This document shows, piece after piece, positions 20,128 to 21,952 of a stretch of DNA of 64,000 bases. The position numbers and the translations under genes were made by a program. Below the pieces are notes generated by a model, which saw only the letters and a program-made list of their open reading frames with translations, did not search any database and was not told the origin of the DNA. Source of the stretch: Chloroflexota bacterium (GTDB lineage: Bacteria; Chloroflexota; Anaerolineae; Aggregatilineales; Phototrophicaceae); NCBI GenBank assembly GCA_011523615.1, contig WTGJ01000027.1, positions 852,270 through 916,269 of the forward strand, in the 5' to 3' direction. Numbering within the stretch: the stretch's first letter is position 1; the number at the start of each line of letters is the position of its first letter.

Positions 20128-21770
20128 AAAAAGGCATGCTCATGAAAACGATGGATTTTGATTTTCGCTCGCGCCGCTCCATGGTCGCCGGGAAGCAAGG
20201 AATGGTTGCGGCGAGCAATCCCCTCGCGGCCCAGGCTGGTTTGCGCATCCTGCAGCAGGGTGGTACGGCGGCCGACGCAGCGATCGCCGCCGCTGCGGTG
20301 ATGAACGTCGTCGCCCCGTCCTCCACCGGGATCGGCGGGGATTGCTTCGCTCTGTATTATGACGCGAGCGCCCGTCAGGTCAGCGCCCTGAACGGCAGCG
20401 GCCGCGCAGCCAGAGCTCTCTCGCTGGAAACGGTGCGTGCCGCCGGCCACGAGCAAATGCCGCATCGAGACGCCGTCTCGGTCACCGTCCCCGGTGCAGT
20501 CCGTGGTTGGGCCGATCTGCTGGAACGATTCGGCCGGTTGTCTCTGAAAGAAACCTTGGCCGATGCCATTCAATACGCGTCCGAGGGTTATCCGCTCAGC
20601 CCGGTTTTTGGCCACAGTTGGCAACACAGTGAAGCGCTCTTGCAGAGCTGGCCGCATACCGCGGATTACCTGCCCAATGGCCAGGCGCCGGCGGTAGGGC
20701 AGATCGTCCGCTTGCCTCAATTGGCAGCATCTCTTCAACGAATCGCCGAGCAAGGTCCAGACGCTTTTTACGAAGGTGAAATGGCTGACCGCATCGCAAC
20801 CACATTGCGCGATCTTGGCTCACCCATGTCGGCAGCCGATTTGCGCGATCATCGGTCGGATTGGGCCGATTCCATCCACATCGACTATCGCGGAACGCGC
20901 ATCCACGAACACCCACCCAACGGGCAGGGGCTGGCCGCACTGATCGCGCTGCAAATTTGCAGTGGGTGGCCCATCGATTCTCTCCCTCCTTTGTCGCCGG
21001 AACGGCTGCACCTCCAGGTGGAAGCGATGCGAGTCGGTTTTGCCGATGCAGCCCAATATGTGGCGGATGCCGCAACCCACCCTGCACCCTTGGATTTTCT
21101 GCTGAGTGAAGGATATGCCGCCGAACGACGAGCGCAGATCTCTCCGCTGAAGGCGATGAGCCCACCCAGTTACGGCCGACCCGCTGGTTCTTCCGATACG
21201 ATTTACCTTTGCACCGTCGATGGAGAGGGAAACGGTTGCTCCTTCATCAACAGCCTATTTATGGGTTGGGGATCGGGCATTGTCGTACCGGGAACCGGCA
21301 TCTTTCTGCAAAACCGCGGTGCGGGTTTTCGGCTCGAACCCGGCCATCCCAACGCCTTAGCCGGTGGCAAACGACCCTATCACACCATCATTCCCGGCAT
21401 GATGACGCGCGACGGTGATTTGTGCGGTGTCTTCGGCGTCATGGGTGGCTACATGCAACCGCAGGGGCATCTGCAAGTCGTCAGCGCCATGCTCGATGAT
21501 GATCTCAATCCGCAGGAAGCGCTCGATCGGCCGCGTTGGTGCCTGGGCGCCGGCGTCTCTGTTGCCGGTGATAGTGAGCTGCTGCTCGAAGAAGGCATAT
21601 CGCTGAAAACCATGGCTGGTTTGGCGCGGCTGGGTCATCGCGTCCGCCCCATCAGCGGTGCCGATCGTGCGGTTTTCGGCAGCGGACAAATCATCCTGCG
21701 GGATGCAAGCAGTGGCGTTCTATTCGGTGGCAGCGACCCGCGCAAAGATGGTCTGGTAGCCGCCTATTGA
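20124..21770 (+). CDS. ggt: Gamma-glutamyltransferase
   Basis: 548 residues of the Ntn-hydrolase GGT family, which transfers or hydrolyses gamma-glutamyl groups and matures by self-cleavage before a Thr. N-terminal half: GKQGMVAASNPLAAQAGLRILQ, GGTAADAAIAAA and STGIGGDCFALYYD. The predicted nucleophile is T359 in SSDTIYLCTVD, aligned with E. coli Thr391, followed by SFINSLFMGWGSGIVVPGTGI and KRPYHTIIPGMM. No convincing signal peptide is seen, so a cytoplasmic place is possible. It overlaps the oxidase stop by four bases. Its own stop codon lies inside the promoter of the small RNA gene that follows. Confidence 0.92.
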   Translation: MKKGMLMKTMDFDFRSRRSMVAGKQGMVAASNPLAAQAGLRILQQGGTAADAAIAAAAVMNVVAPSSTGIGGDCFALYYDASARQVSALNGSGRAARALSLETVRAAGHEQMPHRDAVSVTVPGAVRGWADLLERFGRLSLKETLADAIQYASEGYPLSPVFGHSWQHSEALLQSWPHTADYLPNGQAPAVGQIVRLPQLAASLQRIAEQGPDAFYEGEMADRIATTLRDLGSPMSAADLRDHRSDWADSIHIDYRGTRIHEHPPNGQGLAALIALQICSGWPIDSLPPLSPERLHLQVEAMRVGFADAAQYVADAATHPAPLDFLLSEGYAAERRAQISPLKAMSPPSYGRPAGSSDTIYLCTVDGEGNGCSFINSLFMGWGSGIVVPGTGIFLQNRGAGFRLEPGHPNALAGGKRPYHTIIPGMMTRDGDLCGVFGVMGGYMQPQGHLQVVSAMLDDDLNPQEALDRPRWCLGAGVSVAGDSELLLEEGISLKTMAGLARLGHRVRPISGADRAVFGSGQIILRDASSGVLFGGSDPRKDGLVAAY

Positions 21771-21795
21771 ATTCATGCTGTGCTTTTGCTATGTT
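21767..21795 (+). promoter_or_regulatory. Promoter of the small structured RNA
   Basis: TTGAAT (21767-21772) and TATGTT (21790-21795) are exactly 17 bases apart. The -35 box overlaps the stop codon of ggt. Transcription would start near 21802. Confidence 0.55.
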
Positions 21796-21832
21796 TCGCG
21801 CATCGTCCAAACAAACGAAAGGAGGTGATTCA

Positions 21833-21868
21833 GTGAATGGCTGTATGGTGGGGGTGAATCCACGCTGA
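21833..21868 (+). CDS. 11-residue leader-type peptide ORF MNGCMVGVNPR
   Basis: GTG at 21833 lies seven bases after GGAGG of the extremely strong ribosome site, and the frame runs MNGCMVGVNPR then TGA. A second start, ATG at 21837 in another frame, gives MAVWWG then TGA. Codon 5 onward lies in the 5' arm of the long stem, so a translating ribosome would open that stem. Whether the peptide matters or only ribosome passage does is unknown. Confidence 0.4.
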   Translation: MNGCMVGVNPR

Positions 21869-21924
21869 ACATCACCTTCGGGGGATGAGCCACGTGCGGT
21901 TCACCTCCACCCGCTACAAGCGAA

Positions 21925-21952
21925 AAAGGCGGCCGATCGATCGGCCGCCTTT
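21925..21952. terminator. Perfect 28-bp palindromic bidirectional terminator
   Basis: AAAGGCGGCCGATC is followed directly by its reverse complement GATCGGCCGCCTTT, then TGCTTTT. It can end both the small RNA on the plus strand and the nine-gene operon arriving from the minus strand (stop at 21971). Confidence 0.75.

Follow-up and report, generated by a model that had tools for sequence, protein, structure and literature searches.

The gap between ggt and a convergent gene, within a 64,000-nucleotide stretch of an Anaerolineae (Chloroflexota) genome (hereafter the window), raises the question of whether it holds a gene of its own and what such a gene would do. The first-pass annotation had read a self-standing transcription unit here, with a promoter TTGAAT-N17-TATGTT, and this agrees with our direct reading of the sequence (Table 1). 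The palindromic terminator that it described is also present, with the figure of 28 applying to the nucleotides of the palindrome and not to base pairs, as the stem has 12 bp and the loop 4 nt. In most relatives, a −10 element of the form TAtnnT lies at a constant 6 nt ahead of the A in ATCGT, and a transcript of about 150 nt is predicted from this conserved promoter. At gathering thresholds, Rfam returned no family at this segment, and a group II intron or an rRNA remnant as its identity had no Rfam support. As judged from the sequence, the segment is a complete, free-standing, single-copy small RNA (sRNA) gene, comprising a promoter, a Shine-Dalgarno (SD) element, a mini-ORF, a hairpin and a terminator.

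Table 1. Features of the predicted sRNA gene, with positions in the window.
Feature	Position	Strand	Basis and remarks
−35 hexamer TTGAAT	21767..21772	+	Read from sequence; overlaps ggt stop codon
−10 hexamer TATGTT	21790..21795	+	17-nt spacer after −35; 6 nt ahead of inferred start
Transcript 5' end AUCGUC	21802..21807	+	Start (A21802) inferred from −10 spacing; kept in relatives
Extended SD GAAAGGAGGUGAU = GAAAGGAGGTGAT	21817..21829	+	Pairs without mismatch over 13 nt with the 3' tail of this genome's 16S rRNA
Mini-ORF of 11 codons (MNGCMVGVNPR), GTG start and TGA stop	21833..21868	+	Sequence; relatives
P1 hairpin, 5' arm	21847..21864	+	Within ORF codons 5-11; folding, covariation
P2, post-stop apical hairpin (anti-SD-like ATCACCTTC, UUCG loop)	21869..21886	+	Folding; covariation weaker than for P1
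Anti-SD-like ATCACCTTC	21871..21879	+	Sequence; directly after mini-ORF stop
P1 hairpin, 3' arm	21893..21911	+	Folding, covariation
TCACCTCC, able to pair with SD	about 21902..21909	+	Sequence; within P1 3' arm
Palindromic intrinsic terminator	21925..21952	+	Sequence, folding; 12-bp stem, 4-nt loop, then GCTTTT

The most conserved element of the Chloroflexota RNA is its SD. We located the genome's own 16S rRNA gene with Rfam and found that it ends in GGATCACCTCCTTTCT, of which GAAAGGAGGTGAT is the exact 13-nt complement (predicted duplex −27.0 kcal/mol); the complementarity, first noted against the usual 16S tail, is hence a perfect match to the 16S of this genome. The site was also said to be stronger than any other in the window, and indeed GAAAGGAGGTGAT occurs there just once without a mismatch, with the next-best site showing two. 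Two explanations draw directly on this element. First, the RNA might be a ribosome sponge, wherein the over-long SD pairing holds the 30S subunit and titrates initiation capacity, with the mini-ORF merely letting the ribosome run off. This is the main rival to the reading that we develop below, and it would account for both the strength of the match to the exposed 16S tail and the conservation of the SD; titration would, however, demand a very high abundance. Second, as a perfect complement of the mature 16S tail, the RNA might act as a guide or antisense RNA in the maturation or quality control of the 16S rRNA 3' end and not in translation, but this leaves a conserved start codon, frame and stop unexplained, and we regard it as very improbable.

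To define the phyletic spread, we used a covariance model, R1, built from nine sequences, including that of the window, and no alphaproteobacterial ones. Within the order, 92 of 154 genomes gave R1 matches at E ≤ 0.05, almost always a single one. In 298 genomes across the class, the matches at E ≤ 0.001 came from members of this order only, with none outside it. The loci in relatives share the promoter, start, SD, mini-ORF and hairpin, and the named records in which these sequences recur bear the label of Anaerolineae or Chloroflexi bacteria. The window locus itself shows the combination that characterizes the family, namely a covarying P1 and an in-frame mini-ORF ending on it. By these comparisons, the RNA is the window's representative of an order-wide Anaerolineae family, a larger finding than the single locus described earlier. 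Other searches were set aside: searching relatives by DNA similarity gave too much noise past a few members, a phylum-wide pattern search mainly recovered the strong SDs of ordinary genes, the matches in phage records were only partial and weak, and a weak match of 26 nt at C5:96620 appears to be fortuitous.

We also observed further RNAs with an SD and a short ORF in the phylum. Four of them, of a different type, lie near position 1500 of loci from the same order (L039, L041, L043 and L045, from genomes G066, G087, G001 and G068); they read MFQADMPSALGFLHSDN, MFESVKTSALGYLRSIN, MFQDLNTQIALVVSF and MIFNQSINIDTNQRALRESASN, and GCGCTCTGGGTT/AACCCAGAGCGC is an example of their stems. In other Chloroflexota families, L319 (G222) and L320 (G425) have an SD with ORFs of 12 and 11 codons (MIRIWTREVPVL and VSSNQPRGALT, respectively), followed by stems; MIRIWTREVPVL from L319 resembles the ORF of the actinobacterial RNA Ms_IGR-5 (TREV).

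We then investigated the predicted structure. The stem of 18 pairs with one bulge around a C-UUCG-G hairpin, which the first-pass annotation had drawn, is recovered as P1 in both the minimum free energy (MFE) and centroid folds, and the segment folds with z = −5.3, none of 200 shuffles being equally stable. RNAalifold on a plain MAFFT alignment recovered only a helix between the SD and the post-stop element, with no compensatory change. Since indels misalign P1 in such an alignment, we used a covariance model with a hand-given structure, which yielded a structure-fitted alignment of 97 members, 86 of them distinct. Across these 86 related sequences, standard pairs make up 81% of P1/P2 positions versus 65% in shuffled controls, and the covariation is 0.426 versus 0.171 ± 0.009 (0/500 shuffles), with slid-partner controls reaching only 0.08-0.12. 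All seven of the inner P1 pairs have changed on both sides, which provides the compensatory changes that had been anticipated for this stem; the support for P2 is weaker (68.5% paired). Because this alignment was itself fitted to the structure, we added an alignment-free test on 19 members, in which the ORF arm pairs with its own downstream region at −31.7 kcal/mol versus −23.4 ± 0.9 with those of the others (0/20000 permutations). Together, the comparative evidence makes a strong case that P1, which overlaps the ORF, is a true RNA helix whose pairing has been kept by compensatory changes.

The mini-ORF behind the SD, likewise claimed earlier as real, keeps its frame and length in relatives. 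Of the 86 distinct sequences, 85 have an ORF behind the SD, with 9-13 codons in 82, though these counts, as those for the structure, cover related sequences and so are not independent events. The start codon and the stem anchor are nearly always 14, 17, 20 or 23 nt apart, with one frame in 80/85; the indels are, therefore, whole codons. Moreover, 78/85 have their stop at position +13 or +16 relative to the stem anchor, compared to 6-7% with a stop in this region for the other two frames. The peptide behaves differently: pN/pS is 0.9-2.4 in the pre-stem and stem codons, a rough guide given the small groups and the structural constraint. Thus, the frame and length of the mini-ORF appear to be kept and its peptide sequence not, which suggests that the function of the RNA may lie in being translated and not in the peptide product. 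A role as a small mRNA that encodes a functional micro-peptide (9-13 residues) would fit the strong SD, the frame kept in most members, and the recurring motifs KGV, MVGV and SRSHMGV. Against it, pN/pS is about 1 or above, the recurring residues result from the RNA-conserved GGGGGT, and the ORF lengths and sequences differ between phyla, so that we consider it improbable. The conserved frame favours a translation-linked or ribosome-titrating role, as far as sequence conservation can indicate one. Between these two, a sponge needs no conserved ORF length or frame and no stop position on a covarying hairpin; hence, we hold it to be unlikely.

The 3' arm of P1 had been proposed to compete as an anti-SD. 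Such pairing is possible: in the free RNA, the predicted energies are −38.6 kcal/mol for the P1 hairpin, −17.0 for the SD with TCACCTCC and −13.6 for the SD with the post-stop element, so P1 is predicted to be favoured and the SD mostly open. As a conserved switch, the arm does not stand, as in relatives it usually reads CGCTCCC or similar, TCACCTCC is not kept, and the pairing loses to P1 in the free RNA. Its resemblance to the 3' end of 16S rRNA is specific to this sequence. The post-stop element ATCACCTTC does have counterparts, with a CACCT-like motif in 68/82 sequences, and its pairing with the SD is possible in most members, at −11.9 versus −9.0 for shuffled sequences (a median of 11% of the shuffles being equally good). 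As a covarying switch, it showed no covariation among the members tested (p = 0.58, alignment-free permutation). A closed state with a sequestered SD is possible in these folding models.

A mini-ORF, hairpins and a terminator form the layout typical of leader-peptide attenuators, and the RNA recalls these closely enough for a role in cis, as attenuator or leader of the gene that follows, to be weighed. At the window locus, ggt lies upstream and the downstream gene is convergent, so the RNA does not precede a gene on its own strand as a leader would. In 12/18 Chloroflexota loci, the following gene lies on the opposite strand, and the neighbours and their strands vary (ORFs called by a simple script). 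As the flanking genes vary, the sRNA is not a leader, and an attenuator is disfavoured to the point of being barely credible.

The reading that we prefer, to which we give about an even chance, is of a free-standing, ribosome-engaging small RNA in which translation of the mini-ORF would open P1. A 30S subunit would dock on the SD while P1 is still folded just downstream; this can be envisaged because P1 begins about 14-20 nt past the start codon, roughly at the edge of the initiating ribosome. Translation of the mini-ORF, whose predicted stop sits at the loop side of the P1 5' arm, would then draw this arm into the ribosome and free the 3' part until termination. The RNA would, accordingly, have two states, an open one occupied by a ribosome and a closed, free one, and might report or respond to the supply of initiating ribosomes. 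Candidate objects of the open or closed form are a target mRNA, the decay of the RNA itself, or the 30S pool. It counts against this reading that ribosomes commonly unwind hairpins, so that P1 need not be an obstacle to them.

The first-pass annotation knew of no RNA family with this layout, a statement that our searches lead us to revise on two counts. First, at E-value thresholds the best Rfam match is CC2171 (RF01867), an sRNA of Caulobacter and other Alphaproteobacteria, which aligns end to end with 38.7 bits (E = 5.7e-7); this score lies below the gathering cut-off of 75, and the RNA is not a member by score. Over the 2.6-Mb genome, this locus is the sole match of the CC2171 model at E ≤ 1 (E 1.2e-6). 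Both RNAs begin with AUCGUC, followed by GAAAGGAGGUGAUC, a start codon, a short ORF of conserved length over a stem, and a terminator; the CC2171 5' segment CGAAAGGAGGUGAUYCAGUG in the Rfam alignment is present in the window. They differ in that the CC2171 ORF mostly has 22-25 codons versus 9-13, and in the extra helix CAUUGUC/GACAAUG of the alphaproteobacterial members, which is absent from 21802-21952 of the window; there is otherwise little sequence identity. Conversely, R1 matches a Hyphomonadaceae locus (L145) at E = 5.3e-8, P1 included, with 16S-antisense controls at about 0.02 or worse. Thus, it is plausible from the sequences that the Chloroflexota RNA is a divergent relative of CC2171, with homology across the phyla.

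A pattern scan of named genomes listed among its matches Anaerolineae, a large number of Alphaproteobacteria and, from the actinobacteria, at least Cellulosimicrobium; the pattern fixes the start and the SD, so neither counts as evidence. Two of the alphaproteobacterial loci score above the cut-off of CC2171, and the one from Cellulosimicrobium above that of Ms_IGR-5. Among the alphaproteobacterial members of the MSHC type (n = 36), the ORF mostly has 22-25 codons, with a standard deviation of 2.5, the other frames giving 39 and 46; the frame-0 spread is narrowed by construction, as the ORF choice was limited to 12-32 codons. These ORFs pair better with their own than with others' downstream regions (0/5000). 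In the smaller MSS group (n = 11), the frame is seen but the preference for the own partner is not (p = 0.15).

A second alphaproteobacterial type, with MSSE ORFs of 20-26 codons, was seen at L109, L117, L123, L132, L133, L148, L150, L161, L163 and L173, several of which have a GGAGCAGCCT segment; an Rfam scan of five of these (L117, L123, L148, L163 and L173) gave no sRNA family above the cut-off. Additionally, CC2171-like segments, mostly without an annotated gene, occur on large plasmids of Azospirillum, Methylobacterium, Skermanella and Sphingobium (records H1-H21), and two IMG/VR contigs (L321 and L322), which could be prophage-borne or host DNA, have the exact CC2171-type start GAAAGGAGGTGATCCAGTGTCTCATTG.

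Second, the same layout recurs in the actinobacterial Ms_IGR-5, which in Streptomyces is transcribed as a unit of its own (PMC8079986, PMC8780764) and for which ribosome profiling of M. abscessus and M. smegmatis gave significant reads (PMC4974804). It shares with the Chloroflexota RNA an extended SD, identical in the Rfam consensus, a short ORF whose end can pair with a distal arm, and a terminator; its ORF has 12 codons (LIDLWTCEVAAR in our own translation of the consensus, VKTLRTREVVAR in L135). The window RNA has each of the defining layout elements, namely the extended SD, the short ORF and the ORF-overlapping stem. Ms_IGR-5 is the longer RNA and the likeness is one of layout: its model (RF02471) had no match in the window even at E up to 5. 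Since the SD itself accounts for much of the resemblance, cross-phylum homology is less certain here than for CC2171.

Other systems offer partial parallels. 6S RNA mimics the natural substrate of RNA polymerase; it is unrelated to the Chloroflexota RNA in sequence and structure and serves as an analogy only, the central machine being RNA polymerase in the one case and possibly the 30S subunit in the other. Closer in form is rnTrpL/peTrpL of Sinorhizobium, a dual-function attenuator sRNA (PMC10117765), which is likewise a short RNA with a mini-ORF and is both translated and active as an sRNA; unlike the Chloroflexota RNA, it is leaderless, derives from the trp attenuator upstream of trpE and makes a functional peptide.

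We found no function for CC2171 or Ms_IGR-5, and they are catalogued as separate non-coding sRNAs; what they have in common with the Chloroflexota RNA is the perfect 16S-tail complement and the mini-ORF. We tentatively suggest, at somewhat less than even chances, that the three form one class spanning at least three phyla, whose conserved function would be to present a full-length complement of the 16S tail and to translate a peptide-neutral mini-ORF through a hairpin, as a general sensor or regulator of ribosome supply. The orphan RNAs then become a single question, namely what a cell might gain from translating a seemingly meaningless message of 10-25 codons through a hairpin. That the frame and length are kept but not the peptide was tested in the Chloroflexota, and Caulobacter, M. 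smegmatis and Streptomyces are model organisms that would allow direct tests of this question.
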